64,000 nt of DNA from Alphaproteobacteria bacterium (GTDB taxonomy: Bacteria; Pseudomonadota; Alphaproteobacteria; UBA2136; UBA6156): the NCBI GenBank assembly GCA_027485835.1, contig JAIXQG010000002.1:326232-390231 (forward strand), given 5' to 3'. Positions 36,121-64,000 of the stretch are shown here, piece after piece (the first letter of the stretch is position 1; every line of letters begins with the position of its first letter). The notes under the pieces were generated by a model. That model ran no database searches. It was not told where the DNA came from and was given only the letters and a program-made list of their open reading frames with translations. The position numbers and the translations under genes were made by a program.

Positions 36121-36690
36121 CTATTCCACCATGCGATGAGAAGACATGGCGCCGCTGGTAGCAGCCAGCAGGGTGCTGTCTTCGGCGTGGTCCGATGGGT
36201 TGGCCATGCCGAGCATTTCCGCCAGCTTGGCGCGACCACGGTTGATGCGGCTTTTGACGGTACCGACGGCGACGTCGCAGATCACGGCGGCTTCTTCGTA
36301 ACTAAAGCCGTTGGCGCCGACCAGCAGCAGCACTTCGCGCTGGTCGTCCGGCAGCTTCTTCAAAGCTTCGCGGAAACGGACGAAGTCGAGGTGTTTGCCT
36401 TGGTCCGGCATGGTCACCATACGCTCGGCGTAGGAGCCGTCGGCGTCTTCGACCTCGCGCTGGCGCTTGCGGCACTCGGTGTAAAACTGGTTGCGCAGGA
36501 TGGTGAACAGCCATGCCTTCAAGTGGGTATCCGGACGGTAGGTCTCGCGGTTGGCCCAGGCGCGCACCAACGTTTCCTGCACCAGATCATCGGCACGGTC
36601 GGGATTGTACGTCAGCGACAGCGCGAACGCGCGCATGCTTGGCACGGCGGCGAGCAGCTCGTCTTTAAAGTTGAAAATAAGATCGGCCAT
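36121..36690 (-). CDS. ecfG: General stress response sigma factor EcfG
   Basis: A 189-residue ECF sigma factor. Region 2 is seen in ALSLTYNPDRADDLVQETLVRAW and LKAWLFTILRNQFYTECRK, and region 4 in LPDDQREVLLLVGANGFSYEEAA and VAVGTVKSRINRGRAKL. In Alphaproteobacteria EcfG directs RNA polymerase to GGAAC...GTT promoters when released from NepR by phosphorylated PhyR. NepR is encoded one base upstream, PhyR divergently, and several EcfG-type promoters are visible nearby, so the identity is well supported by context. Confidence 0.95.
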   Translation of the reverse strand: MADLIFNFKDELLAAVPSMRAFALSLTYNPDRADDLVQETLVRAWANRETYRPDTHLKAWLFTILRNQFYTECRKRQREVEDADGSYAERMVTMPDQGKHLDFVRFREALKKLPDDQREVLLLVGANGFSYEEAAVICDVAVGTVKSRINRGRAKLAEMLGMANPSDHAEDSTLLAATSGAMSSHRMVE

Positions 36691-36691
36691 G

Positions 36692-36913
36692 CTATTTAAC
36701 CTTGCTCTTCTCGGCTTGTTCCAGTTGCTCTAAAAGCTGGCTGAAACGGTCGGGGACCGGTTCGGTTAACAGATCCTGAAAGCTGACCTTCAGCAGGTTA
36801 CCAATGTGCTTTTGCACATCGGCGCCCAAGCCGGGGGTGGTGGCGTCATCGGATACGTCCGTTTCCTGTACGGGGGATGCGGGGGTCAATAGCGTGTCGA
36901 TCGGTGTGCTCAT
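36692..36913 (-). CDS. nepR: Anti-sigma factor NepR
   Basis: A 73-residue protein with a disordered acidic N-terminus and the two conserved NepR helices (QKHIGNLLKVSFQDLL and EPVPDRFSQLLEQLEQA). NepR holds EcfG inactive; under stress, phosphorylated PhyR binds NepR by mimicking sigma and frees EcfG. The gene ends one base before ecfG, so both are made from one message. Its own promoter is not clear; I see no GGAAC-type site on this strand in the 252-bp gap towards phyR. Confidence 0.92.
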   Translation of the reverse strand: MSTPIDTLLTPASPVQETDVSDDATTPGLGADVQKHIGNLLKVSFQDLLTEPVPDRFSQLLEQLEQAEKSKVK

Positions 36914-36994
36914 GGTGTATAGGCATACACGGGTTAGAGTGATGGGTAAACCCCTCTTTTCTCACTTTATTTTCGGTTTTTTTGCCTTTTTACG

Positions 36995-37019
36995 GGAACA
37001 AACGGAACGGTGGTGCGTT
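36995..37019 (+). promoter_or_regulatory. EcfG-type promoter upstream of phyR
   Basis: GGAAC, 17 bases, GTT (with C before GTT), matching the known alphaproteobacterial EcfG consensus GGAAC-N16/17-cGTT. It points to phyR and would make the response autoregulated. Confidence 0.8.
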
Positions 37020-37031
37020 AGGTTCTGTATG

Positions 37032-37053
37032 GCGGTATAAAAACCGCTTTTTT
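37032..37053 (+). terminator. Possible hairpin with T run in the phyR leader
   Basis: GCGGT and ACCGC form a 5-bp stem followed by six T. It lies just after the EcfG-type promoter and 113 bp before phyR. It could attenuate transcription, but the stem is short. Confidence 0.35.
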
Positions 37054-37165
37054 ATGTTTATTTTCAATTACTTTTTATGTGTTTTTTGCATTTTTCCGTT
37101 TGCATGATGTGCGTGTCGGTGGTAACCGTGGTGAGATCTATTAACAACGGAACGGAATTCACCTG

Positions 37166-37966
37166 ATGAGCACCGCGCAAACCCTTGCCACTTATGTACC
37201 CTACCTGCGCCGTTACGCCCGCGCCCTGTGCGGCACCCAAACGGCCGGTGACGCCTATGTGGCCGCCACCCTTGAAACCCTTGTTGCCGCACCGGAGACG
37301 CTGAGCAGCGCCTCCAGCCCCAAAGTGGCTTTGTACAAGACGTTTACCAATGTTTGGAACACCATTGCCGCCAACAGCCATGAGGTAGAAGGCCCCGGCA
37401 ACACCACCCTGCAAAACACCCCGCCGACACTGGATGTGATGACGCCGTTGCCGCGTCAGGCGTTTTTGCTGACCTCGATGGAAGGCTTCAGCCACGCCGA
37501 TGCCGGTGAGATTTTGGGCCTGAGCACCCAAGACGTAGCTACCTTGGTGGCCGAAGCAGGTCGCGAAATGGGCCAGCACATTGCCACCGACGTGTTGATT
37601 ATTGAAGATGAACCGCTGATTGCGATTGACCTTGAGAACGTGGTGGAAACGCTGGGGCACCGCATTACCAATGTAGCCCGTACGCATAAGGAAGCGCTGG
37701 AAGCGGTCAAGCTGCAAAAGCCGGGCCTGATTCTGGCCGACATTCAGCTGGCGGATGGTAGCAGCGGCCTCGATGCCGTCAACGACCTGCTGACCGAGCT
37801 GAACGTGCCGGTGATTTTCATTACTGCTTACCCTGAACGTTTGCTGACGGGCGAGCGTCCGGAACCGGCGTTCCTGTTGACCAAGCCGTACAACCCGACG
37901 ATGCTTTCCGCAGTGATCAGCCAAGCGCTGTTCTTTGAAAAGAAAGCGGGGAAGATGGCGGCCTAA
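37166..37966 (+). CDS. phyR: Response regulator PhyR (sigma-like anti-anti-sigma factor)
   Basis: A 266-residue PhyR. Residues 1 to about 130 mimic an ECF sigma factor (TLATYVPYLRRYARALCG; FLLTSMEGFSHADAGEILGL), and the C-terminal half is a receiver domain (VLIIEDEPLIAIDLE) with the phosphorylated Asp in LILADIQLADGSSG and the conserved Lys in FLLTKPYNP. When phosphorylated, the sigma-like part is exposed and captures NepR, releasing EcfG. It lies divergent to nepR-ecfG, the usual alphaproteobacterial layout, and behind an EcfG-type promoter. Confidence 0.96.
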   Translation: MSTAQTLATYVPYLRRYARALCGTQTAGDAYVAATLETLVAAPETLSSASSPKVALYKTFTNVWNTIAANSHEVEGPGNTTLQNTPPTLDVMTPLPRQAFLLTSMEGFSHADAGEILGLSTQDVATLVAEAGREMGQHIATDVLIIEDEPLIAIDLENVVETLGHRITNVARTHKEALEAVKLQKPGLILADIQLADGSSGLDAVNDLLTELNVPVIFITAYPERLLTGERPEPAFLLTKPYNPTMLSAVISQALFFEKKAGKMAA

Positions 37967-37985
37967 GCCCCTTCCCTTTCCTACC

Positions 37986-38013
37986 AAAAAGCCGCCCGAG
38001 TGGGCGGCTTTTT
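37986..38013. terminator. Bidirectional terminator between phyR and the secreted protein gene
   Basis: AAAAAGCCGCCC and GGGCGGCTTTTT with a GAGT loop form a perfect 12-bp stem with T runs on both strands. Confidence 0.92.
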
Positions 38014-38025
38014 GCAGGCGGGTTG

Positions 38026-38685
38026 TTAACCTGCGGGCTGGATGGCGGCGGCGTTATCGCGGAAGCGCGGCTCGTTCCAGAAGTCGTCGGTAGAAAGAGC
38101 TACGTACATGAACTGGCTCATGTCGTTCACCAGCAGCATGCTTACCGGAACGGTCAGGCTGGCAACAGGTGTGTTGGCCTGCATGTGTTGCGAGGGCGTG
38201 ACGGTGACGTACAACGGCTGGCCGCTGGCCGAATGAACGATGCCGGTAATGGTGCCGAGCGTATCGCTGTTCAGGCTTTTGAGCGGCATGCCCATCAGCT
38301 GCTGTTGCGAGACTTTGCGGCCTTCTCCGACCGTCAGCGTGCTATTCACGGCCTGACCGCTGATGGAGGCGATCTGTGACTGGTACTCGGCCAGCGTGAC
38401 GCGGGCGGTGGCGGGGTTAGCCAACATCGCCTGAATGGCGGCGGCTTTCTGGCCGCAGGAAACCAGATCGCCACGGGCTACGTCGGCTTCCGCCGAAGCA
38501 CGCAGCTGGCCGATGGCCTTGACGAGGTCTTGGTTGTGATAGGCGCGGTAGAAGTCGCTTTGCGCCAGTTTTACGCCGGTTGACAGATTTTCGGTCGTGC
38601 AGGCGCTTGCGGCGTCTTGTGCGTGAAGCGGCAACGCCACCAGACCTAATGCCGCATAAATTGCGACGGTTGCTGGAACTTTCAT
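38026..38685 (-). CDS. Secreted protein, possibly PRC-barrel-like
   Basis: A 219-residue protein with a signal peptide (MKVPATVAIYAALGLVALPLHA). The middle is helical and Ala/Gln-rich, with two cysteines (SACTTEN, VSCGQKAA). The C-terminal half has a block (LKSLNSDTLGTITGIVHSASGQPLYV in part) resembling a PRC-barrel strand set, found in many stress-induced envelope proteins. The function is not known. The start at 38685 has AAGGAGACTACATCC before it; the open frame continues 41 codons upstream through the promoter region and is not used. A near-consensus EcfG site lies at 38747-38771, which fits its position beside the stress regulators. Confidence 0.75.
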   Translation of the reverse strand: MKVPATVAIYAALGLVALPLHAQDAASACTTENLSTGVKLAQSDFYRAYHNQDLVKAIGQLRASAEADVARGDLVSCGQKAAAIQAMLANPATARVTLAEYQSQIASISGQAVNSTLTVGEGRKVSQQQLMGMPLKSLNSDTLGTITGIVHSASGQPLYVTVTPSQHMQANTPVASLTVPVSMLLVNDMSQFMYVALSTDDFWNEPRFRDNAAAIQPAG

Positions 38686-38746
38686 GGATGTAGTCTCCTT
38701 TTCCTCTATGACAAACGAAACGAGGCAATGCCTGTTGTGAAGGACC

Positions 38747-38771
38747 AATGGGTGGGAAAGGGTTTTGTTCC
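38747..38771 (-). promoter_or_regulatory. Variant EcfG-type promoter of the secreted protein gene
   Basis: On the minus strand GGAAC, 17 bases, ATT. It differs from the consensus only at the first base of GTT and is 62 bp upstream of the ATG at 38685. Confidence 0.5.
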
Positions 38772-38861
38772 GTTTGCTGGAGTCTTTCACGTATACACAT
38801 ACATGCAAAAGTGATAGATATCCCTCTGGAAACCCTATTGGACAACACAGGACCCCGCCAC

Positions 38862-40733
38862 GTGAACCTAGACACCCTGCTGACCGCGCTTGATATGGCC
38901 TTTACCAAGGCCGGCGTGTGGCTGTTTGCCTCGCGCGGGTATATCTCCCGCGGGGAGGCCCTGCATTGGAACGATACGGTCCTAACATGGGATATCGGGG
39001 CAAACGTTCTTAATGGATTGGCGTGCCTGCTTATCGCTGTGGGCTTTTTTGTGTTTGCCGCCCGCCGCCGCGATTTTACGCGGCCGTTCCTGTTCCTGTC
39101 GTACCTTATCGGTAGCCTGTTTCTGGTACGAGCCTTCCAGAACGGCTGGAGCATTGTAGTGTTATGGGAGCCGCTTTATGGCGCGCAAACGCTGATCAAG
39201 GTTGTTTCAGCCAGTATCACGGCACTGGCTGCGGGTATTCTGTGGTTCATGCGGAAAGACCTGCTCAACATACCCGGCCCCAACCACCTGCGCTATGTGG
39301 AAGGCCGTTTGCAAGACCTTTCCAGCCGGATACACGCCCGCCAAGATAACGTAGACGCCCTTGTGGAAGAGCGCACGCAGGAACTGCAAAGCGTGCGTAT
39401 GCGCTTTGAACAGGCGATTGCGGGGGCGGGCATCTCGGTGTTCACGCAAGACCGTAACCTGCGCTACACATGGGTGTTTACCGCCGACGACCTGCTGCGC
39501 GGCGACGTGATGGGCAAAACCGACTTTGACGTGTTGCCCCCCAACAGCTGCGGCCCTGTGGTGGCCCTAAAGCAGCGTGCGATTGCCAGTGGCAAACCGC
39601 ATGAGGCGGAGGTGAGCATACGAAGCCATGGCCACGAGACGTGGTACCGCATGCATATTGACCCGATTATGGATGCCGAAGGCCGTGTGACCAGCTTGAA
39701 CGGGATTGCCGTGAATATTTCCGACCGCAAAATGCTGGAAGACGAGCAGGTGCGTTTGAGCAGCGAGCTGGCGGCCAACCTGCACTATTATAAGCTGGCG
39801 ATGGAGAGCTCTCACACCGTGGTGTTTACCATGGACGAGAACCTGCGCTATGCCACGGTGAGCCACGACTTTTTGGGTAAACCCGCCGATTTTTACATTG
39901 GCAAAACCAATGTCGAAGCGTTGTCGGCGGAGACCTATGCGGCCTTAAAACCCCTTAAAACCAAAGCATTGGACAGCGGCAGCATGGTGCGCGGCGAAAT
40001 TAAGGCCATGATTGACGGCCAACCCCATTGGTACGACCTGAGCATCGCTCCGTTGAAAAACCGCGCCGGTGTGGTGGTGGGGCTGACGGGCGCTGTGATT
40101 GATATTTCGGAGCGTAAAGGTTGGGAGCAGCACTTACGGTTGCTGATGCGGGAATTGACCCACCGCTCGAAGAACCTACTGGCAGTGATTCAGGCCATGG
40201 CGCGCCAGACCGCCCGCCACAGCGGCACGGTGGACGAGTTTATTGAACGTTTTGGCGCCCGCTTGCACGCGTTGGCCGGTAGCCACGACCTGTTGGTACA
40301 GGAAAGCTGGCAGCGTGCCAGCATTGGCGAGCTGATTAACTCTCAGTTGGGCCACTACAGCGACCTTGTGGGCACCCAGATTGTGGTGGAAGGCCCGCAG
40401 GTCTACCTGAACCCCGATGCCGCCCAGAACCTGGGGATGGCCTTGCACGAAATGGCGACCAATGCGGTGAAGTATGGCGCGCTTTCCAACAACAAGGGAC
40501 AGGTGGCGATACAATGGGCGTGGAAGGGCAGCGGCGCCAAGCGTGTGCTCAAACTCAGTTGGAAGGAAACCGGCGGACCTGTGGTCAGCAACCCGCAGCG
40601 CCGTGGCTTTGGCAGCCAAGTGATTGAGCGCAACCTGAACCGCGCCTTAGGGGCCAACGTGAAGCTGGATTACGCGCCGAAGGGCTTCCGTGCCGAGATG
40701 GAACTGCCCATCACTGTGGCCGTCGACAAGTAG
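38862..40733 (+). CDS. HWE-family sensor histidine kinase with PAS domains
   Basis: About 623 residues from GTG 38862, which has AGGA nine bases upstream; the frame runs back to ATG 38748 but that part overlaps promoter sequence. Three membrane segments (NVLNGLACLLIAVGFFVFAA; FLFLSYLIGSLFLV; ASITALAAGILWFM) lead into a coiled coil and two PAS domains (VFTQDRNLRYTWVF; VFTMDENLRYATV). The kinase core is of the HWE type: phospho-His in ELTHRSKNLLAVIQAMARQT, ATP site MALHEMATNAVKYGALS, and WKETGGP and RRGFGSQVIE. Such kinases feed PhyR in the general stress response, and its position two genes from phyR supports that role. The signal sensed is unknown. Confidence 0.88.
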   Translation: MNLDTLLTALDMAFTKAGVWLFASRGYISRGEALHWNDTVLTWDIGANVLNGLACLLIAVGFFVFAARRRDFTRPFLFLSYLIGSLFLVRAFQNGWSIVVLWEPLYGAQTLIKVVSASITALAAGILWFMRKDLLNIPGPNHLRYVEGRLQDLSSRIHARQDNVDALVEERTQELQSVRMRFEQAIAGAGISVFTQDRNLRYTWVFTADDLLRGDVMGKTDFDVLPPNSCGPVVALKQRAIASGKPHEAEVSIRSHGHETWYRMHIDPIMDAEGRVTSLNGIAVNISDRKMLEDEQVRLSSELAANLHYYKLAMESSHTVVFTMDENLRYATVSHDFLGKPADFYIGKTNVEALSAETYAALKPLKTKALDSGSMVRGEIKAMIDGQPHWYDLSIAPLKNRAGVVVGLTGAVIDISERKGWEQHLRLLMRELTHRSKNLLAVIQAMARQTARHSGTVDEFIERFGARLHALAGSHDLLVQESWQRASIGELINSQLGHYSDLVGTQIVVEGPQVYLNPDAAQNLGMALHEMATNAVKYGALSNNKGQVAIQWAWKGSGAKRVLKLSWKETGGPVVSNPQRRGFGSQVIERNLNRALGANVKLDYAPKGFRAEMELPITVAVDK

Positions 40734-40758
40734 GGAACCGTTCCGTTTGCCCTGCGTT
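40734..40758 (+). promoter_or_regulatory. EcfG-type promoter of the small membrane gene
   Basis: GGAAC, 17 bases, GTT (C before GTT), directly after the kinase stop codon and 34 bp before the ATG at 40792. Confidence 0.85.
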
Positions 40759-40791
40759 AGCTGAGGGTAAACCAAGGAAAGGAATCTCCCT

Positions 40792-40983
40792 ATGTTAAGT
40801 GGAATTATTGGACTGATTGTCCTTGTTCTGGATATTTACGCGATTGTTCAGGTGTTGGGCTCGGCGGCCACGCCGGTCAAGAAGGTGCTGTGGTCGCTGT
40901 TCATTGTGTTCGCGCCGGTACTGGGCCTGCTGGTTTGGTACCTGATGGGGCCGCGCAGTGCGGCGAATCCGGCGGCCATCTAA
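40792..40983 (+). CDS. Small membrane protein, PLDc_N-like
   Basis: A 63-residue protein with two hydrophobic segments (IIGLIVLVLDIYAIVQVLG and VLWSLFIVFAPVLGLLVWYL) and a short tail (MGPRSAANP). This pattern matches the short phospholipase-D N-terminal (PLDc_N) family, found alone in many stress-induced membrane proteins. The biochemical role is unknown. AAGGAAAGGAATCTCCCT precedes the start. A consensus EcfG promoter lies just upstream, so expression under general stress is likely. A long perfect terminator follows 6 bp after the stop. Confidence 0.85.
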   Translation: MLSGIIGLIVLVLDIYAIVQVLGSAATPVKKVLWSLFIVFAPVLGLLVWYLMGPRSAANPAAI

Positions 40984-40989
40984 ACTGAG

Positions 40990-41034
40990 TGCCCAACACA
41001 AAACGCCCCCGAGAGGGGCGTTTTGTGTTGGGCA
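40990..41034. terminator. 20-bp perfect inverted-repeat terminator
   Basis: The arms at 40990-41009 and 41015-41034 pair perfectly over 20 bp with a 5-nt loop. It separates the convergent membrane-protein and entericidin genes and can act on both. Confidence 0.85.
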
Positions 41035-41039
41035 TAAAC

Positions 41040-41165
41040 TTATTTAGTGGAGTCTTCGATCTTATCGGAGGTGTTGGCCATATCCCGACCTAGGCCGGAG
41101 AAGGTGTTACCACCGCCGACAATGGCGACACCGGCGACAATGACAACAATAACGAGGAGAACCAT
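41040..41165 (-). CDS. Entericidin-like small protein
   Basis: A 41-residue frame from ATG 41165 to TAA 41040. A hydrophobic stretch (MVLLVIVVIVAGVAIVGG) is followed by GNTFSGLGRDMANTSDKIEDS. The latter matches the entericidin EcnA/EcnB pattern (NTxxGxGxDxxxxxxxIxxx), although the usual lipobox cysteine before Asn is replaced by Gly, so it would be membrane-anchored rather than a lipoprotein. Entericidins are small stress-related envelope peptides of uncertain action. A variant EcfG-type site lies upstream. The gene is easily missed because of its size. Confidence 0.7.
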   Translation of the reverse strand: MVLLVIVVIVAGVAIVGGGNTFSGLGRDMANTSDKIEDSTK

Positions 41166-41198
41166 GGAATGTACTTTCTGTTGATGGGTTTTGAGAGT

Positions 41199-41223
41199 AA
41201 TGCCGCTGCGTGGCGTTTGTTCC
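41199..41223 (-). promoter_or_regulatory. Variant EcfG-type promoter of the entericidin-like gene
   Basis: On the minus strand GGAAC, 17 bases, ATT, with C before ATT. It lies 34 bp upstream of the ATG at 41165, the same distance as in the consensus site of the 40792 gene. Confidence 0.5.
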
Positions 41224-41258
41224 CAACCTTACCGGAAACTGGATTGATGAGGACTCAC

Positions 41259-41283
41259 GGAACCGAAGCGAGAATAAAGCGTT
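41259..41283 (+). promoter_or_regulatory. EcfG-type promoter of the glycine-zipper lipoprotein gene
   Basis: GGAAC, 17 bases, GTT (C before GTT), 36 bp upstream of the ATG at 41320. Confidence 0.85.
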
Positions 41284-41319
41284 GTTAGAACAGGCGTTAA
41301 ACCAAAAGGAGACAACACC

Positions 41320-41562
41320 ATGAAATACTTTGTTCTAGCGGCTTTGCTGGCCACGACCACATTCCTTACAGCCTGCGGTGAAACCCGCGCAGACCGGGCG
41401 CTTAGTGGCGCCGGTATCGGTGCCGCCACCGGTATGGCGGCAGGCGCCCTGACCGGCGGTAGCGGGGTGACCGGTGCCGTACTGGGCGGTGCCGCCGGTG
41501 CGGCGGCCGGTGGCCTGAGCGATAAAGATGACGTGAACCTCGGGAAGCCCTGGTGGCGTTAA
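41320..41562 (+). CDS. Glycine-zipper lipoprotein
   Basis: An 80-residue lipoprotein. The signal peptide ends with the lipobox LTAC, and the mature chain is a glycine zipper (GAGIGAATGMAAGALTGGSG and GAVLGGAAGAAAGG) that should insert in or lie along the outer membrane. The tail DKDDVNLGKPWWR is polar. Similar small lipoproteins are frequent in envelope-stress regulons, but no precise role is known. AAAAGGAGACAACACC precedes the start, a consensus EcfG promoter lies upstream, and a strong terminator follows. Confidence 0.88.
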   Translation: MKYFVLAALLATTTFLTACGETRADRALSGAGIGAATGMAAGALTGGSGVTGAVLGGAAGAAAGGLSDKDDVNLGKPWWR

Positions 41563-41586
41563 TCGCTGGCTGATGTGAGCCAACTT

Positions 41587-41614
41587 AAAACAGGACCCAT
41601 GGGGTCCTGTTTTT
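41587..41614. terminator. Intrinsic terminator after the lipoprotein gene
   Basis: AAAACAGGACCC pairs with GGGTCCTGTTTT, with T runs on both strands. It closes the lipoprotein gene and may also serve the convergent gene at 41682. Confidence 0.88.
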
Positions 41615-41681
41615 GCTTCGGGAGAGACACGGGAGCATCTCTCCCTATCCGGTAAAAGGTCGTTTCTGTGCGTACTATTCG

Positions 41682-41957
41682 TTAGGCATGGCAGGAGACC
41701 TTTCCTTCCTTTTCGTGCAGCGCGAGAATCGGGGTGCTGCCGTTGAACAGGCGGCTGTTGAGGAAATTCGCGATTTCACGCGCTTCGGCATACGAAGCAT
41801 ACGGTTGCAGGCGCAGGGTGATGGCACCTTCCGAGCGGTTATCTTCCGCACGGTTATACCACGGGTCTACGACTTTAATCCAAGGTGTGCCGTCTTCACG
41901 CATTTCGATTGTGAAGCCGAATCCCAGTTGATCCCATCCAATGCTCGTCATGTCCAT
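41682..41957 (-). CDS. Hypothetical protein of 91 residues
   Basis: A small cytoplasmic protein (no signal peptide or membrane segment) with mixed alpha/beta character: IGWDQLGFGFTIEMREDG, IKVVDPWYNRAED and SYAEAREIANFLNSRLF. I do not recognise a family. The ATG at 41957 has AAAGGAAA before it, and the residue composition looks like a real protein. Its upstream region carries two near-identical palindromes (42061 and 42114), which could regulate it. Confidence 0.65.
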   Translation of the reverse strand: MDMTSIGWDQLGFGFTIEMREDGTPWIKVVDPWYNRAEDNRSEGAITLRLQPYASYAEAREIANFLNSRLFNGSTPILALHEKEGKVSCHA

Positions 41958-42060
41958 TTTCCTTTCCCATTACTAGCGGATGACTAAGTTGTGGGGCGGA
42001 CAAGCCCCCAGTAAAAGGGGGTTCAACCCGTTATTTCATAAAAGATGCACTACTCGTAGA

Positions 42061-42260
42061 GAGTCTGTCATATCTGATAGACTCGGCACCTCCGAACCTT
42101 ACAAAAGGCTCAAAGTCTGTCATATCTGACAGACTCTCTCCCTCGCCCCTCCTCACGCGTCGTTCATTTCTGACGGTTGCGATGCCGCTTCGTTTCGGTT
42201 TGGAGGGGTTTTGGAGGGGCAGCGGATACACAAAAGCCCCCTTTGGGAGGCTTTTTTTTT
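42061..42260 (+). ncRNA. Candidate small RNA with two repeated hairpins and a terminator
   Basis: The gap 41958-42265 holds no convincing gene. Two copies of a 22-bp palindrome, AGTCTGTCA-TATC-TGACAGACT, lie at 42062-42083 (one mismatch) and 42114-42135 (perfect 9-bp arms). A terminator with a nine-T run for the plus strand ends at 42260, yet no plus-strand gene precedes it. Together this is compatible with a structured plus-strand RNA. Alternatively the palindromes are operators for the minus-strand gene at 41957. The short minus-strand frame at 42031-42231 is judged non-coding. Confidence 0.35.
42232..42260 (+). terminator. Intrinsic terminator with nine T
   Basis: AAAAGCC-CCC-TTT-GGG-A-GGC followed by nine T on the plus strand. 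On the minus strand it could also end the 42266 gene, with only four T. Confidence 0.75.
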
Positions 42261-42265
42261 AATTG

Positions 42266-42730
42266 TTAAAGAGTGGTTCGGTCGGTTCGGGCCTTACGGC
42301 GGCGGGAGGTCGAGGGCTTGCCCACCATCCCTACGGCCGCGGCGGCTGAGGCAATGACGGCTAAGGTGGCCACCCGTTTGGGATGCAGCAGATATTTTAA
42401 AGCCGGTGCCAGTAACGGTGCGGCTACGGTTAACGCCAACGGTGCCAGCATGGTCAGGGTCGACGTGACTTCGGGTGACGGGCGCTGTTTCTGCGGGCGG
42501 TCGAGCTTATAAAACAGCCCCGCCGAGACCAAAGCCAGAACAAGGGCCACAATCAGCGGGCCGAGCAGTGGGCCGAAGGTCAGTTCTAAAGCTCTCCATG
42601 CGACCACAACAAGACAGAGTATGGCGAGGGCCAGCACGCCATAGGCAAGGGCCCGCTGTGCAAGGCGCGGGCCCAAGTGCTTGACCTCGGCCGCAGCCAG
42701 CGCGGCGGTGAGGAGAGAGCTGAGGTTCAT
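42266..42730 (-). CDS. Holin-like membrane protein (YqjE type)
   Basis: A 154-residue membrane protein. Two hydrophobic segments (ALAYGVLALAILCLVVVAWRAL and LLGPLIVALVLALVSAGLFY) form a hairpin typical of the YqjE/holin-like superfamily that accompanies ElaB/YqjD genes. A third, weaker hydrophobic region lies at residues 90-140, and the tail is very basic (SRRRKARTDR). Function unknown; in enterobacteria the yqjD-yqjE-yqjK genes are stress-induced. It is 12 bp downstream of the DUF883 gene and shares its EcfG-type promoter. Confidence 0.65.
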   Translation of the reverse strand: MNLSSLLTAALAAAEVKHLGPRLAQRALAYGVLALAILCLVVVAWRALELTFGPLLGPLIVALVLALVSAGLFYKLDRPQKQRPSPEVTSTLTMLAPLALTVAAPLLAPALKYLLHPKRVATLAVIASAAAAVGMVGKPSTSRRRKARTDRTTL

Positions 42731-42742
42731 GCGCAGGCAACC

Positions 42743-43117
42743 TTAGCGGCGCAGCAGGAAGCCGACCAAGGCGCCGATACCGGCGGCGGCGACCAGCGCT
42801 TGCAGCGGACGCTCGCGGACACTTTCGCGCATATTTTCGGCGTGTTCCTGGCCTTTTTCCATGGCGTTATCGAGGCCCAGCTTGTGCACAAAGTCCGTAT
42901 CGACCAGGCTTTCAAACTTGCCGTGCAGCTTTTCGTACATCTGCTTGATGCTGATCAGGCCTTCATCGGCACCGGCGGCAGCGAGGGATTCCAGACGGGT
43001 TTTGAGTTGGTTGAGGTCGTTTTTCAGGTCTTGTACCGACTCGCTGGTGCGGGCCGATGCGGCACGGGTGCTGGCGCGGGCGGCCTGTTTACGGACGGGT
43101 GTTGCGGTGCGGGCCAT
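42743..43117 (-). CDS. DUF883 (ElaB/YqjD-like) membrane-anchored protein
   Basis: A 124-residue protein. A basic Ala/Arg/Thr-rich N-terminus is followed by a helical region (SVQDLKNDLNQLKTRLES ... AMEKGQEHAENMRESVRERP) and a C-terminal hydrophobic anchor (LQALVAAAGIGALVGFLLRR). This is the layout of the ElaB/YqjD group, tail-anchored inner-membrane proteins that bind ribosomes in stationary phase in E. coli. Start at 43117 with AAGGAGACGCCTC upstream; an in-frame extension to 43249 covers the promoter and is not used. A perfect EcfG-type promoter lies at 43166-43190. Confidence 0.85.
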   Translation of the reverse strand: MARTATPVRKQAARASTRAASARTSESVQDLKNDLNQLKTRLESLAAAGADEGLISIKQMYEKLHGKFESLVDTDFVHKLGLDNAMEKGQEHAENMRESVRERPLQALVAAAGIGALVGFLLRR

Positions 43118-43165
43118 GAGGCGTCTCCTTGATTCGGTTATTCCGGTTGTTACTTCATGGAGCCT

Positions 43166-43190
43166 AACGCAAGCTTTCCTGAATTGTTCC
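43166..43190 (-). promoter_or_regulatory. EcfG-type promoter of the DUF883-holin operon
   Basis: On the minus strand GGAAC, 17 bases, GTT (C before GTT), 49 bp upstream of the ATG at 43117. Confidence 0.85.
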
Positions 43191-55707: not shown

Positions 55708-55795
55708 GGAGGCGTGGCCGAGTGGTTTAAGGCGCACGCCTGGAAAGCGTGTTGGGGGCAACCCCTCGGAGGTTCGAATCCTCTCGCCTCCGCCA
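55708..55795 (+). tRNA. tRNA-Ser(GGA)
   Basis: An 88-nt class II tRNA with CCA encoded. Acceptor GGAGGCG pairs with CGCCTCC; anticodon stem CACGC/GCGTG encloses loop CTGGAAA with anticodon GGA, reading UCC and UCU. A long variable arm (TTGGGGGCAACCCC) confirms serine. The integrase gene 73 bp downstream marks the 3' end as the attachment site of the island. Confidence 0.96.
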
Positions 55796-55868
55796 AAGTC
55801 TTACTCACAGCCAAAATCCTGAAATGAAATGATAGCACCTGTAACAGAGTTACATTGGAGTGCTACAT

Positions 55869-57575
55869 ATGGGTCGTCAGACTTACCTCTTTAAAAGGGC
55901 TGGAACCTACTACTTTCGCATGGTCATCCCTGCTGATTTAAGGCCGAGATTCGGCAAAAATGAACTTGTTTCATCATTACATACAAATGCTTACGCCTTA
56001 GCCAGCGCCCATTGTGCTTTATTGGCGGGTGATTTTAATAGGTTATTCACCCTAGCAAGGATTCAGCCGATGTTAAGTCTTGAGCAATTAAAGCAAATCT
56101 CTAGAACGATTTTCGCAACCCATCTTAGCTCTCACCAAGCTGCTATGAACATCCCTCACTCCCCTACTCAGGTTCTAACCAGCCTTTTGATGAACAAATA
56201 TGCCTCCTTCAACATATCGCCCTCAACGCCCATTCAACCCGATTTTAGTGAAGTTGAACAAACGACCCTCCTTATTGCTGCTAAACAAGAAGGAATTGAG
56301 GAGGGCTCGACAGAATATGCTCACCTTAAAAAGGCTGTTTCGCGCGCCTTAACGGAATGGAAGCATTACCTTCAAGAGTTCAGCGCTGGACAATTGGAGA
56401 TAACGGCGCGTGATAGTTGGTTTAGCGACCTTTACCCAGACTATACCCCTCCTCAAATGGTTAACACCCCCCGAGATGTTACCCTCACAAGCGAACTACT
56501 ATCCGTAATCACAACTCGCCACTTAGCTGAGGACACAGCCGACAAGAAAAGTAAGCAAAAGAAACAGGTGGCGGCTAACTGGTTTGTAGAATGGTTTGGA
56601 GACAAACAGATTCACCTCATTACTAAGGAAGATGCACGTAATTATAAAACTAACTTGGCCAGAATGCCCAAAAACGCTACCCAGCGATATCCTAACATCT
56701 CAACTTCACAGCTGATTCAGAGAAAGTTTAAGCAAACTGACTTGATTTCAACTTCCAGCTTGAATGCTTATCTCGTTGCTATGAGCACCCTTTTTAACTG
56801 GGCCAAGAAGAATTACGACAATGTCGTTAACAATCCTTTTGAAGGGATCGCCGTTAAAGGGCCGAAGAACGATAAGGAAAAACGCCGCGCCTTTACGTCA
56901 GAACAAATCAAAAAGATATTTGAGAACCCCCTCTTTAGCGGGTGCCGAAGCGAAACACAGCGTTATATACCCGGTGAAATTGTGATTAGAGATGCCAAGT
57001 ATTGGGTACCCATTCTAGGGTTATATACCGGAGCAAGATTAAATGAGATCTGCCAGCTTTATATTGAGGATGTGTATAAACACGGCGAAATTTGGGTGCT
57101 TGATATTAACCAAAATGGTAACGATAAACGCCTCAAAACTGTTGCGGCTAGAAGAAAGATACCTCTTCATCCGCAGCTTCTAGCCTTAGGATTCCATAAT
57201 TATGTGACCACTCAGGGCGGTACTCCAAAGGACAGAGTGTTTCCTGAAATAGCGCTTGGAGCTGATGACACTTACTCCCATACGTATTCAAAACAGTTTG
57301 CATATGCGCTGAGAAACAAATTTGAAATTACGGATGAAAAAGTCACATTCCACAGCTTTAGACATTCACTTACGGATGAATTGAGAAATGCTGATGTGGA
57401 TACAGCGGACATCAAGCGAATCCTTGGACATGAAGATAGCTCAGTTACAGCCAATTACGGTTCCTCCGAAACCCTAGAACGTTTACATAGAGCAATTTCC
57501 AAAGTTCATTTCCCTATTCAATGGCATGAATCCCTCGATTCAAGACCTAGAGTTGTAGCTAGAGCTCGGGATTAA
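55869..57575 (+). CDS. int: Tyrosine recombinase / integrase of the island
   Basis: A 568-residue phage-type integrase. The N-terminal part (YLFKRAGTYYFRMVIPADLR) is the DUF6538-like arm-binding region seen in integrases of this type. The catalytic residues are R in LYTGARLNEICQL, HxxR in HSFRHSLTDEL, His in ILGHEDSS and the nucleophile Tyr in TANYGSSE. It would cut and join DNA at the 3' end of tRNA-Ser. The start ATG 55869 has GGAG eight bases upstream; GTG 55860 is in frame but has no ribosome site. It is long compared with most integrases (about 400). Confidence 0.93.
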   Translation: MGRQTYLFKRAGTYYFRMVIPADLRPRFGKNELVSSLHTNAYALASAHCALLAGDFNRLFTLARIQPMLSLEQLKQISRTIFATHLSSHQAAMNIPHSPTQVLTSLLMNKYASFNISPSTPIQPDFSEVEQTTLLIAAKQEGIEEGSTEYAHLKKAVSRALTEWKHYLQEFSAGQLEITARDSWFSDLYPDYTPPQMVNTPRDVTLTSELLSVITTRHLAEDTADKKSKQKKQVAANWFVEWFGDKQIHLITKEDARNYKTNLARMPKNATQRYPNISTSQLIQRKFKQTDLISTSSLNAYLVAMSTLFNWAKKNYDNVVNNPFEGIAVKGPKNDKEKRRAFTSEQIKKIFENPLFSGCRSETQRYIPGEIVIRDAKYWVPILGLYTGARLNEICQLYIEDVYKHGEIWVLDINQNGNDKRLKTVAARRKIPLHPQLLALGFHNYVTTQGGTPKDRVFPEIALGADDTYSHTYSKQFAYALRNKFEITDEKVTFHSFRHSLTDELRNADVDTADIKRILGHEDSSVTANYGSSETLERLHRAISKVHFPIQWHESLDSRPRVVARARD

Positions 57576-57671
57576 GAAAATAAAGATATAAACCAGCTCA
57601 TAACAACTATCACAGAGATAGAGATAAAGAAGACAGGGGTTATGACCACGAATTATGTTCCTAGCCCCTAT

Positions 57672-57710
57672 ATGTCGCTCAAAGCCTTTGTAGAATTGAA
57701 AAACCCTTGA
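57672..57710 (+). CDS. Possible 12-codon leader peptide
   Basis: A short frame, ATG 57672 to TGA 57710, whose stop overlaps the TTG start of the following gene (TTGA). It may couple translation of the polymerase-like protein. Only the geometry supports it. Confidence 0.3.
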   Translation: MSLKAFVELKNP

Positions 57711-59053
57711 ATCAGCATTTAACGCAAGCAGCGCAGCTTCTCTTAGAAGATATCGCAAACGACGAGTCGAGCGTTCTCACGCAGAGCAGCAAATGGATTA
57801 AGCTGAACATGCACTTGGAAACCCCAAGAACTAAAATTTTTGCTCAGGCTTGGAAAGAACTGCATAGCCGTGCGAAGCTTCCAAATACGAGAGCGACTCA
57901 CAAACATTTACAGTTTCTCTTGCTTAACATTGCTCACAGTATGAGAGATGGTCATGTAGTAGCTTTGGCCTGTCCGAATAGTAAAAAAACAATTGTTAGT
58001 TGGACACGTACTCAAAACCCTCACCGCTTAACCCCTACCCTCCTCAGCGTTGTGAACGGATTAGAACGCGCCGGTTACCTGATCAAAATCGGCTCCCAAA
58101 AACATTTTCAAGGAAAAGACCGCAAGTATAGCCGCATAATTCCAACTCCGAAGCTGATTGCAGAGATTATTGAGACCTACAATCTTCATAAAACACACGT
58201 AACTTATGTTGCTAATCTGGTGGCGGTCACTAAAGCAGAGTCTTGGGATAGAAATAAAAAGAAAATCAGACAGAAGGTCGATATAAGGCTCTTTAAGAAC
58301 CCTGCCGAGATCTCCCTTATACAATCATCAAATTCTTTCTTAAAAGATTATAATCGCTTTCTGTTGGCTCATAGAATCGAGCTTTCGGATAACGGTAGAC
58401 CCATCAGCCAATTTAAATTAGTTAGGCGCGTTTTCTGCCGAACAAGCTTACAGGCCGGAGGTAGATTCTTTGGTGGATTTTGGCAAGGTCTACCAAGTGG
58501 CAAACGCGGTGAATCAGGCAGCCGCAAACAGATCTTAATTAATGGCGAGCCTACAGTAGAGCTTGATTACAAGTCGCTGCATCCTCATTTGCTGTACCAA
58601 TGGGAAAACCTCCTACCTCCCGACGATGCTTATCTTCTAGCTGATTGGCCTCGTGAATTAGTAAAGAAATGCATTCTCGTTACATTTAACTGCAAGAGCT
58701 TTGGAGAGGAAGCATCGCTTAATTCCGTGCTGAAAGACAAAGAGTTGCAACACCATTGTTCCCTTTTGGAAAATGGCGGCTATTCTAAACTACGTAGAGA
58801 CTTTATTTCCAAGAATCCTGCTTTAGAGAAGTTTCTAGGAAAAGATGTAGGCGTTCGTCTTCAACGACAGGATAGCGATATTGCTATGGTAGTCATGAAA
58901 AGATTGATGCAGGAAGGCATTTTAGCTCTTTGCATTCACGATTCTTTCATCTGCCAAGCCAAATACGAGGAAGCTCTCCGTCAAATCATGATGGAAGCGT
59001 ATAAAGATGTTATGCAAACCCAAACAACCCCTTTAATCGGTAAAGTTATTTAG
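57707..59053 (+). CDS. Uncharacterised protein with polymerase-like palm motifs
   Basis: A 448-residue protein, TTG start (other starts possible downstream, e.g. the Met at residue 35). Residues 240-300 read [10 protein letters not shown], then [14 protein letters not shown], which looks like polymerase motif A with Asp287. Residues 316-333 read [18 protein letters not shown], matching motif B (R-x3-K ... FG) of family A DNA polymerases and T7-type RNA polymerase. Residues 387-414 end in CIHDSF, like motif C (HD-E or HDSF). The order and spacing fit a palm/fingers fold. The N-terminal 200 residues have no recognisable domain. The [10 protein letters not shown] region occurs, to my knowledge, in hypothetical proteins of mobile elements without assigned function. 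A replication or priming role for the island is inferred, not shown. Confidence 0.7.
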
Positions 59054-59265
59054 AATAGATCTGAAATCTTCAGCCCTAATGCCTTTGCTATCTTGAAGAT
59101 GTTTTCAAGGGAGACGTTTCGCTCTCCACGTTCTATCGCACCGATGTAAGTCCGATGAAGTTCGCACACTTCTGCGAAACTCTCCTGAGAATATCCCTGA
59201 GCCTGTCTCAAATCCCGCACTTGAGCGCCAAACGTCTTTTTGAGTGCCTCAAGTTCTCTGTCCAT
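59050..59265 (-). CDS. XRE-family helix-turn-helix regulator
   Basis: A 71-residue repressor-like protein consisting of one HTH_3 domain: [38 protein letters not shown] in two overlapping helices, with [14 protein letters not shown] after it. Its end overlaps the convergent polymerase-like gene by 4 bp. It is divergent from the membrane protein at 59359, and the gap holds two sets of direct repeats that may be its operators. A role as island regulator is inferred. Confidence 0.88.
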
Positions 59266-59306
59266 AACGGATTAGACCGTTTATGCACACTATATATCTA
59301 CAGACT

Positions 59307-59357
59307 ATAAGTAGCACTTGACGACAATAAAAACCTATGTTGATGACAATAAGTAGC
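59307..59357. promoter_or_regulatory. Direct repeats in the divergent promoter (possible operators)
   Basis: ATAAGTAGC occurs at 59307-59315 and 59349-59357 (42 bp apart), and TTGA(C/T)GACAATAA at 59318-59330 and 59340-59352 (22 bp apart, about two helical turns). They lie between the XRE gene and the membrane protein gene, where a repressor would bind. Confidence 0.55.
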
Positions 59358-59358
59358 T

Positions 59359-59991
59359 ATGAAAGTCGGTGCCATGGACTCACGTAATCTACCTCCTCTG
59401 AAGGAAGCTAGGATAGCTAAACGTTACCAGATAGGTAATTACCTCTTCATTGAATTTTTCGACATTCCAAAACAGCCAGCGATTGTTTACCTGTTTGCGC
59501 TGCTTGTTCTTGATCTTAAGACCGAACAACCAGTTTTATGCATCACTTCAGAAAGAACAGGAGAGCTTGCTACTGCCGCATTTAACAAAATGATGAAGGG
59601 CATTGGAGAAAACCTCACCACTTCAGACTCACCTTTCTTTTGTGTAGTAGGACGTGATTCCATTCATAAGAATCTTGGCTCTTCATCCGATTGGGATAAT
59701 CAGAAAAAATTCTTTATTGAAGCACAGCGATATGCCGTTGATGAATTGGGCTTAGACCTTGAACACAGCCAAATCATTACCAAGCAAACCCCAAGACAGG
59801 AAACCGGTGATAGTTACTGGCCTGCCATTCTAGGGTTGTTTTTCTTTGCTGCTATTATCGGAGCTTATCTTCTCTACAAATCCGAAGAGAGCCCCGAACA
59901 GAAGAGATTCATGCTTGGATGCTTAGGAAGCCACAATGAGAATTTCTGTGAGAGGCTCTGGGAAAAGAAAAACTCAATACATTCCAACTAA
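59359..59991 (+). CDS. Hypothetical protein with one C-terminal membrane segment
   Basis: A 210-residue protein. The first 150 residues are soluble and mixed alpha/beta (RYQIGNYLFIEFFDIPKQ; LLVLDLKTEQPVLCITSERT; FFCVVGRDSIHKNLG). One membrane segment follows (YWPAILGLFFFAAIIGAYLLY) and a short charged tail with two Cys. I do not recognise the family. It may start at ATG 59359 or 59374. Its end overlaps the convergent nuclease-like gene by 4 bp. Its divergence from the XRE regulator suggests repression by it. Confidence 0.7.
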   Translation: MKVGAMDSRNLPPLKEARIAKRYQIGNYLFIEFFDIPKQPAIVYLFALLVLDLKTEQPVLCITSERTGELATAAFNKMMKGIGENLTTSDSPFFCVVGRDSIHKNLGSSSDWDNQKKFFIEAQRYAVDELGLDLEHSQIITKQTPRQETGDSYWPAILGLFFFAAIIGAYLLYKSEESPEQKRFMLGCLGSHNENFCERLWEKKNSIHSN

Positions 59992-62192
59992 ACAGAGCAA
60001 CATTTTTTATACTTGGCTCCGCTTCCACATGGACATGGATCGTTTCTCCCCATTTTCGCTTTAGCTAACAATGAATTACGGCTAGTTATTTGCTGAAGAG
60101 GCTGAGACGATTCAATGATATTTTCCATGATGGGATTCATCTTCCATGGGAATTCAGAAACTAGCCTTGTTCTAATTGCAAAACTAGTTGGATCAATGAT
60201 AATTCCAAACCAAGTATCAGCCTTCTGACCATATTTACGCCTCGCCATATGCTGTCTGAGCGAGCCAATTTCGTTAGTGATGTCTGAAAGAACGGATGTA
60301 TAAACGGTTATTCCTGTAGGGTTTGTGCCAGAACCAAGAGTGACATCGTGAGTTCCTCCATCTTGCAATGTCATTACAGCAATTTTTCTTATCGCATCAT
60401 TTAGATAGTCATGCGTTTGTTCGCTCATTTGCAGAAGCATTAACCCAAGCTCGATATCCTCAGGATCAGAGCTAAATTCCAATTGCGCTATAATGTGTCC
60501 GATAGGAGTGTTCTGCAATTTTGTTAGAATTCCTTCAGGAGTTCTAAGCCCAGGCATGCCATCACGCCTCACCGCCATTGCAACATCCAAATCAGCGGCA
60601 ATATCATCTTCAAGATGCATCATATCAACATCGTTTGGCAGCCAAAGAGTTCTCTTTATATGAAAGGACAACAATGTATGCTCATGAGAAGCCATAATCT
60701 GTTCGCCAAAACGAGCCCTTAAATTTAAGTAATGAAGAATATGATGAGGACTTGGAAGCATTTCTGTAATTGCATCCAGAGCAAATACGTCTGTAACTAA
60801 AGGAGCCTTCAATTTATCGGATGAGCTATATTTCAAAAAGTCCCGAACTTGGGCTTTTAGTGCTGGATAATGCTCTGCAATGAGACACACAGGAAATACC
60901 GCTCGAAGCTTGGGTACCGTAATTTCATTACCTTCTTTATCTCGAAGCTTGGAATCCCCTGAAATCATTGCCTGAGCACATATCTCTGCTTGATTATAGG
61001 CGTCTTGCACCGCTGCTTTAAAATCATCTTGGATGCTCTCATCGCTGCCTTTGCGAGACTTCAGAGTCAGTTTTTTTGATTTAGCCTGCACAACTATTGC
61101 GTATTCTCCAAAAATCACGAGACAATCGATTTCACCTATCTCAGCTCCCTTTTTTTGACTGAGAATAACTTGCGTCCAGACATGGGTATCGCCAAAAGCT
61201 TTTGTAAAGCATCTTTGAGCGAAATCTTCCGTAAACAGTCCTCTATTATCTGATGCTTCATTCCTATAAGAGCGATCAGCTATCATCCAATAGTAAGGAG
61301 ATTCATACAAAGACTCAGTAAGAGTATAATACTGATATAAAATAAATTTACCTTCAGGCAATGCAATCAGAGGAGTGGCATTAACCGCATTAAAATCATG
61401 TATAGAGTTGAATGTAGGATTATTGTCTTCTTCTTTTAAAGAGAAAGCATCGAACACTCGCTCAATTAAACCTACTTCTATTCCAGAAAAATCGCTTATT
61501 TCTTTGCATGAGAAAGTAAAGTTAGGAAGAACTGTCCACTCTTCAGGTGATATACCCTTCATCTTCTCTAATAGAGGGACTTGGCGGTCATTTTGATAGT
61601 CGCAGACAGCCTTAACCACTTCATATGCTTCCTGAATAGTAAATCCTTTATTCGCTTGAAGCCACTTATTATCATGCTCATATTTTGGAACTGCAAAGTC
61701 TCTATATTGAGAAGTATAAGCAGATTCACCACTATAGAAAAATGGCTCTCTTAAGCTTTCACCTGAACTAAAGGGACTTTTCTCACTAAACTTGCCAGAA
61801 CTAATTTCTTCTCTGATGCGTTTTATAAAGGGCTGTGAGAGCGCTTGGTGAAGTTCTTCCAATAACGCTCTTGAAGCACCAATTTGCTGATTAATTGTTG
61901 AATATGCCAATCTATAGTCAATCGGTCGGCTTTTTACCATGAGGCCTATCAAGGTGCTTAACTCTGTCCTAATCAATCTTGATCGTGTGAACAGGTGCAT
62001 AAGATCTTCAGGCTTCATTTCTGGCCCGATTTTTACAAATGAATCACTAAAGCACATTGTAGCTAAAGCGTGTGCATATCCCTCTGAGCTACATAACTCA
62101 GCTAATAAGGCAAATACTTCTTCCTCACTTCTAACCACTTCGAGCACAGAACTAGGCTTAGGTAATGAAGGATGCGATTTACTTTTTTTCAT
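59988..62192 (-). CDS. Large protein with D...QxK nuclease motif and C-terminal SEC-C
   Basis: A 734-residue protein. The first 300 residues are helical with no recognised domain. At 321-371 a restriction-like fold is suggested: Glu322 in FTEDFAQRCF, then GEIDCLVIFGEYAIVVQAKSKK, giving the D356...Q369-x-K371 arrangement seen in NERD and Mrr-type nucleases. The last 22 residues are a SEC-C zinc motif (GRNDPCPCGSGAKYKKCC). The region between is helical. It lies 11 bp downstream of the ATPase gene and was probably transcribed with it. A role as the DNA- or RNA-cutting part of a defence pair is inferred. SEC-C is also found in SecA and other proteins, so it does not define function. Confidence 0.78.
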   Translation of the reverse strand: MKKSKSHPSLPKPSSVLEVVRSEEEVFALLAELCSSEGYAHALATMCFSDSFVKIGPEMKPEDLMHLFTRSRLIRTELSTLIGLMVKSRPIDYRLAYSTINQQIGASRALLEELHQALSQPFIKRIREEISSGKFSEKSPFSSGESLREPFFYSGESAYTSQYRDFAVPKYEHDNKWLQANKGFTIQEAYEVVKAVCDYQNDRQVPLLEKMKGISPEEWTVLPNFTFSCKEISDFSGIEVGLIERVFDAFSLKEEDNNPTFNSIHDFNAVNATPLIALPEGKFILYQYYTLTESLYESPYYWMIADRSYRNEASDNRGLFTEDFAQRCFTKAFGDTHVWTQVILSQKKGAEIGEIDCLVIFGEYAIVVQAKSKKLTLKSRKGSDESIQDDFKAAVQDAYNQAEICAQAMISGDSKLRDKEGNEITVPKLRAVFPVCLIAEHYPALKAQVRDFLKYSSSDKLKAPLVTDVFALDAITEMLPSPHHILHYLNLRARFGEQIMASHEHTLLSFHIKRTLWLPNDVDMMHLEDDIAADLDVAMAVRRDGMPGLRTPEGILTKLQNTPIGHIIAQLEFSSDPEDIELGLMLLQMSEQTHDYLNDAIRKIAVMTLQDGGTHDVTLGSGTNPTGITVYTSVLSDITNEIGSLRQHMARRKYGQKADTWFGIIIDPTSFAIRTRLVSEFPWKMNPIMENIIESSQPLQQITSRNSLLAKAKMGRNDPCPCGSGAKYKKCCSV

Positions 62193-62203
62193 TATATTAG
62201 ATA

Positions 62204-63871: not shown

Positions 63872-64000
63872 TCACATACTCTATGCTAAGCAATAGTTTT
63901 ATCAAGAGTATAGAAAACATTTACTATTTATGAGACTTACTTAACACATAAGTGAGCTAACCCAATTTTTCCCCCTACCCCACCCCTTAAAGCTAAAGCT
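63872..64000. promoter_or_regulatory. AT-rich upstream region of the ATPase-nuclease pair
   Basis: No gene can be seen in the last 129 bp. It should contain the promoter of the minus-strand pair. Confidence 0.4.

Follow-up and report, generated by a model that had tools for sequence, protein, structure and literature searches.

A predicted PhyR-NepR-EcfG general stress response locus with clustered GGAAC promoters in a small-genome alphaproteobacterial lineage

Do the six GGAAC sequences that stand in front of genes around phyR in an alphaproteobacterial contig serve as promoters of the general stress response, or do they only look like them? The question was raised by a window of 64,000 nucleotides (the whole stretch analysed; GenBank assembly GCA_027485835.1, contig JAIXQG010000002.1, positions 326,232 to 390,231), in which ecfG, nepR and phyR adjoin one another and six such sequences fall within the 6196 bp from 36995 to 43190. 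We hold with high confidence that this locus would encode the PhyR-NepR-EcfG general stress response of a small-genome lineage and that its GGAAC sites would be EcfG promoters, and judging from the sequence and its conservation, the six sites are very probably real promoters of this response. By analogy with studied systems, we infer that stress would lead an HWE histidine kinase to phosphorylate PhyR, that phosphorylated PhyR would bind NepR and release EcfG, and that the released EcfG would bind GGAAC-N17/18-(C)RTT promoters and initiate transcription from them. Besides phyR, its targets would comprise five envelope genes of this 6-kb stretch, small or coding for secreted products, and no fewer than seven gene families elsewhere.

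Six GGAAC sites and the genes behind them

The original prediction named six genes with a GGAAC-N17-RTT site upstream, and all six sites were found where it placed them, on the expected strands, with 17-base spacers and 33-146 bases ahead of the named genes. The base preceding RTT was C in every case, giving four CGTT and two CATT boxes. The predicted promoters are:

36995..37019, + strand, EcfG-type promoter of phyR, GGAAC-N16-CGTT, 146 bases to the start codon
38747..38771, - strand, EcfG-type promoter of the secreted-protein gene, GGAAC-N16-CATT, 61 bases to the start codon
40734..40758, + strand, EcfG-type promoter of the PLDc_N gene, GGAAC-N16-CGTT, 33 bases to the start codon
41199..41223, - strand, EcfG-type promoter of the entericidin-like gene, GGAAC-N16-CATT, 33 bases to the start codon
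41259..41283, + strand, EcfG-type promoter of the glycine-zipper lipoprotein gene, GGAAC-N16-CGTT, 36 bases to the start codon
43166..43190, - strand, EcfG-type promoter of the DUF883-like gene, GGAAC-N16-CGTT, 48 bases to the start codon

All of them combine what marks an EcfG-type promoter, namely GGAAC, a spacer of 16-18, (C)GTT or CATT, and a start codon within about 200 bases. In 1000 dinucleotide shuffles of the 6196-bp stretch, the mean was 0.25 GTT and 0.40 RTT sites, and none of the shuffles reached the 4 GTT or 6 RTT sites observed. Across the whole window the excess of GTT sites was modest (7 vs a mean of 2.15, with 1 of 100 shuffles reaching 7), and the loose pattern GGAAC-N15..19-RTT was not enriched there (17 vs 19.9 expected).

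The genome of the window (G000) was compared with two relatives from its genus, G001 and G002, whose PhyR proteins are 81% and 70% identical to its own. GGAAC-N17-RTT was found at the same place for all six genes in G001, and for all four testable genes in G002 (phyR, PLDc_N, glycine-zipper and entericidin), where the locus lacks the secreted-protein gene and the contig stops short of DUF883. Identity reached 47/48 motif bases against 55/102 spacer bases in G001, and 31/32 against 20/68 in G002. As the motif was the criterion for picking the sites, a fair count is that of orthologous upstream regions holding one, which is 6/6 and 4/4. The genes of the locus are:

36121..36690, - strand, ecfG, general stress response sigma factor of the extracytoplasmic function (ECF) type, 189 residues, Pfam Sigma70_r2/r4_2, adjoining nepR and phyR
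36692..36913, - strand, nepR, anti-sigma factor, 73 residues, Pfam NepR 2.9e-12, over cut-off
37166..37966, + strand, phyR, anti-anti-sigma response regulator, 266 residues, Pfam PhyR_sigma2, PhyR_sigma-like and Response_reg, NCBIfam PhyR family over cut-off
38026..38685, - strand, secreted protein and putative target, 219 residues, no Pfam or NCBIfam family matched, ortholog in G001 and none at the G002 locus
38862..40733, + strand, PAS-PAS HWE histidine kinase with HRxxN box (HRSKN), Pfam HWE_HK 2.2e-26, start codon uncertain
40792..40983, + strand, PLDc_N small membrane protein, 63 residues, Pfam PLDc_N 5.1e-10
41040..41165, - strand, entericidin-like peptide without lipobox cysteine, 41 residues, NCBIfam entericidin domain below cut-off
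41320..41562, + strand, glycine-zipper (YMGG-like) lipoprotein, 80 residues, Pfam Gly-zipper_YMGG 5.2e-07, over cut-off
42266..42730, - strand, membrane protein, 154 residues, 12-base gap downstream of the DUF883-like gene, order kept in G001
42743..43117, - strand, DUF883-like protein, 124 residues, Pfam DUF883_C 5e-06, just below cut-off

The identities of the EcfG-type sigma factor, NepR and PhyR were borne out by Pfam, NCBIfam and solved-structure matches. The best structural match of EcfG was 5uxx (E 2.4e-52), and PhyR aligned over its full length with solved PhyR structures, with both the sigma-like and the receiver domain present. The HWE kinase is likely the kinase of PhyR, and the 154-residue membrane protein gene is probably co-transcribed with the DUF883-like gene. 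One NepR and one HWE kinase were found in each of the three genus genomes (93, 86 and 78% complete), and the locus therefore looks like a minimal switch; in G000, of 1.53 Mb, NepR, PhyR and the HWE kinase were each found once.

The clustering of stress regulators with small envelope targets within 6 kb, which the prediction had also put forward, was confirmed. In 20 phyR regions elsewhere in the class, drawn from the best 30 PhyR matches in a class survey, 39 N17-CRTT sites lay upstream of genes as placed by a gene caller, compared with 0 when the spacer was 13 bases. Among the small proteins encoded in these regions, some look by eye CsbD-like, DUF1328-like or entericidin-like. It is thus common for small targets to lie near phyR, lineages differ in which ones they have there, and the clustering is ordinary. 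In the survey PhyR was present in at least 64 of 385 genomes of the class, probably a lower bound with at most six candidates scored per genome, and none of the 64 listed PhyR-bearing genomes is smaller than G000. Within the order it was found in 3 of 18 genomes, all three from this genus, several of the others being incomplete.

The upstream region of nepR-ecfG

No exact GGAAC site was found upstream of nepR-ecfG in any of the three genus members, a point that the original prediction had passed over. Such a site is usual at this type of locus without being universal, and it was not treated as a defining trait. Outside the genus, NepR was found in 17 of the 20 phyR regions, 16 of which carry GGAAC-N16..18-RTT upstream of it, and the seventeenth (L230) has a GGAAC site farther out. 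Both transcription units are normally under promoters that depend on the general stress response, according to the portion of a review used here (PMC8103513), and no description of such a nepR-ecfG arrangement was found in the parts of the open-licence literature covered. The distance from the phyR site to phyR is 146, 146 and 151 bases in G000, G001 and G002, compared with 15-56 bases in those relatives outside the genus, 11 of 20, that have a phyR site. Upstream of nepR the following element was found:

36922..36950, - strand, TTTACC-N17-TATGCC, predicted as a non-EcfG promoter for nepR-ecfG, its end 8 bases ahead of the nepR ATG

The pattern TTTACC-N17-TAT occurs once in the window, and its spacing is kept in all three genus genomes, where 8, 7 and 9 bases separate its end from the nepR ATG (G000, G001 and G002). 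The longest invariant run in the phyR-nepR intergenic alignment, GGGTAAAC, covers the upstream half of the element, and a run of at least 8 invariant columns arose in 97 of 20000 column shuffles of this alignment. These features suggest that nepR-ecfG is driven by a non-EcfG promoter in this genus, presumably a housekeeping one, and the spacing between element and ATG would point to a leaderless transcript. Feedback would therefore pass through phyR only.

Besides its position at 36944-36951, GGGTAAAC is present at 40765-40772 in the PLDc_N leader of G000, and five copies are found in the window, on both strands.

An alternative that bears on the feedback alone is that the autoregulation of nepR-ecfG known elsewhere operates here too, by way of a degenerate EcfG site beyond the exact search. 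G000 does contain AGAAC-N18-CGTT, with one mismatch, 87 bases from nepR, but this sequence overlaps the phyR site in reverse complement, no comparable degenerate site is conserved in G001 or G002, and the best conserved element upstream of nepR is TTTACC-N17-TAT. We consider such autoregulation unlikely. To the fuller proposal, that the genus has been rewired to fixed levels of sigma and anti-sigma factor, made from a probably leaderless housekeeping-type transcript, with all transcriptional feedback via phyR, we give about an even chance. If it holds, the rewiring would abolish NepR-mediated braking and make the response sharper and possibly bistable, with one copy of each part found. The genus would then be a natural test of what EcfG feedback via nepR-ecfG is for, because it seems to manage without such feedback.

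Two candidates in this region were set aside. A further GTT site (36698-36722, - strand), which the original prediction did not count, lies inside nepR and is shared with G001; it was ruled out as a leaderless ecfG promoter and is treated as a coding coincidence because it is missing in G002. A structured phyR leader, with a terminator-like hairpin at 37031-37048 just past the expected phyR start, was also rejected, as the leader folds like its shuffles (z -0.18); by eye, neither G001 nor G002 showed an evident counterpart of the hairpin.

Promoter boxes and the wider regulon

The genome of the window contains 42 N17-CRTT sites (26 CGTT, 16 CATT), and 20 with a 13-base spacer. Among the 38 sites examined by position, 18 lay in a gap no more than 200 bases from a start on the same strand, compared with 1 of 20 spacer controls (Fisher p 0.0007). 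Outside the cluster, 12 of 32 sites were upstream of genes (p 0.008 vs the spacer control), and three more sites beyond the 38 were also upstream of genes. Seven families outside the cluster have kept a site in one relative or more:

DUF892, spacer 18 in both genomes
473-residue protein
secreted protein, 3/3 genomes
KGG
67-residue protein
transglycosylase-associated protein, 3/3 genomes
81-residue membrane protein

The sites that belong to the TspO and DUF6496 genes of G000 have no match among those of the relatives. Site positions and orthologs together rule out a regulon confined to the cluster, a reading suggested by genome totals that stay at or below those of a reversed pattern. The original prediction, in which the cluster helps define the regulon and all six sites have a 17-base spacer, holds for the six cluster genes as probable members and for their spacers, and falls short of the whole regulon, in which at least seven conserved targets lie elsewhere and the spacer is 17 or 18. 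The result is a conservation-supported regulon, consisting of six cluster genes and seven further families, for a little-studied small-genome alphaproteobacterial lineage.

The two ATT sites had been listed as variants. They are very probably real, and they form no odd class, since CATT is a known weaker -10 box: in Sphingopyxis granuli, changing CGTT to CATT lowers in vitro transcription and the reverse change raises it, as described in the part of that study consulted (PMC7083833). The S. melonis target table, in the portion of the source consulted, likewise includes ATT sites (PMC6599016). Within the genus, the phyR and PLDc_N sites are CGTT in G001 and the glycine-zipper site is CGTT in both relatives. 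The two boxes appear interchangeable because the DUF883 gene has CGTT in G000 and CATT in G001, and by analogy CATT is probably the weaker of the two in this regulon. It is very doubtful that GTT sites alone belong to EcfG and that both ATT sites belong to another sigma factor. The secreted-protein site is CATT in G001 too, and all three genomes have CATT at the entericidin site, as such a division would have it, but the exchange at DUF883, the boxes of the transglycosylase-associated gene (CGTT, CATT and CGTT across the three genomes) and the transcription of CATT promoters in vitro by Sphingopyxis granuli EcfG, at a level below CGTT (PMC7083833, same part), all argue against it.

Several observations weigh against reading these sites as EcfG promoters. 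Neither the HWE kinase gene nor nepR-ecfG has an exact site. In G002 the phyR site reads AATT and the PLDc_N site AGTT, neither of them CRTT. By the position test, 20 of the 38 N17-CRTT sites were not upstream of a gene. Genome motif totals did not exceed those of the reversed-pattern control (33 vs 50 in G000, 23 vs 23 in G001 and 27 vs 39 in G002), the sole total to beat it being CATT in G000 (16 vs 9). It follows that many single sites are chance matches, and that the regulon is not definable by sequence match alone and needs position and orthology as well. That the cluster sites too are chance matches or coding or composition artefacts, with one or two relevant at most, is highly improbable and is refuted for the set of six: the unenriched loose pattern and the genome totals would agree with it, but no shuffle produced six sites, every orthologous region compared retains one, and the upstream bias relative to the spacer control is strong.

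Far from this locus, the region 55708-64000 is likely an integrated island next to tRNA-Ser (55708-55795), with codon usage unlike the remaining window. It holds a tyrosine integrase (55860-57575) along with an AAA/OLD-like TOPRIM protein and a NERD/SEC-C protein.

Comparison with known systems

The entericidin-like peptide resembles Entericidin EcnA/B in its GNTxSGxGxD core, its small size and its predicted stress-sigma promoter. It differs in that the G000 and G001 copies are without the lipobox cysteine, whereas G002 has a cysteine-bearing copy just upstream. The window copy had no Pfam match and scored below the NCBIfam cut-off, and its G002 ortholog passed the Pfam Entericidin cut-off; no cysteine was found in the orthologs of any of the three genomes. 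In G002 (L040, about 1335-1620) a tandem pair follows the CATT site, first a cysteine-bearing copy over the Pfam Entericidin cut-off and then a cysteine-less one, and at the same position (window 41040-41223) G000 and G001 hold the cysteine-less copy only.

The remaining comparisons draw on parts of the cited papers. As in the canonical PhyR-NepR-EcfG locus, there is a nepR-ecfG operon, a divergent phyR, a nearby HWE kinase, GGAAC promoters and small envelope targets; the canonical locus has promoters dependent on the general stress response on both units, whereas here one is recognisable on phyR only (PMC8103513). Sphingopyxis granuli TFA shares GGAAC-N16-CGTT, flexible -10 boxes including CATT, an entericidin (ecnAB) locus among the targets, and one sigma paralog without an EcfG promoter. 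There, EcfG comes as two paralogs and the nepR2-ecfG1 operon carries an EcfG promoter, in contrast to the one nepR-ecfG operon without such a promoter here (PMC7083833). Methylobacterium extorquens AM1 is alike in having an EcfG promoter on phyR and none on its ecfG genes. In that species an EcfG promoter is predicted for nepR, and ecfG lies away from the phyR locus, whereas here nepR and ecfG form one operon at the phyR locus with no exact site upstream; Methylobacterium is thus a known exception, of another form, to stress-dependent promoters on both units (PMC4814048). Overall, the switch, the promoters, the clustering and the CATT box seem to be of a known kind, and the sole unusual part seems to be a nepR-ecfG operon without an EcfG site of its own.

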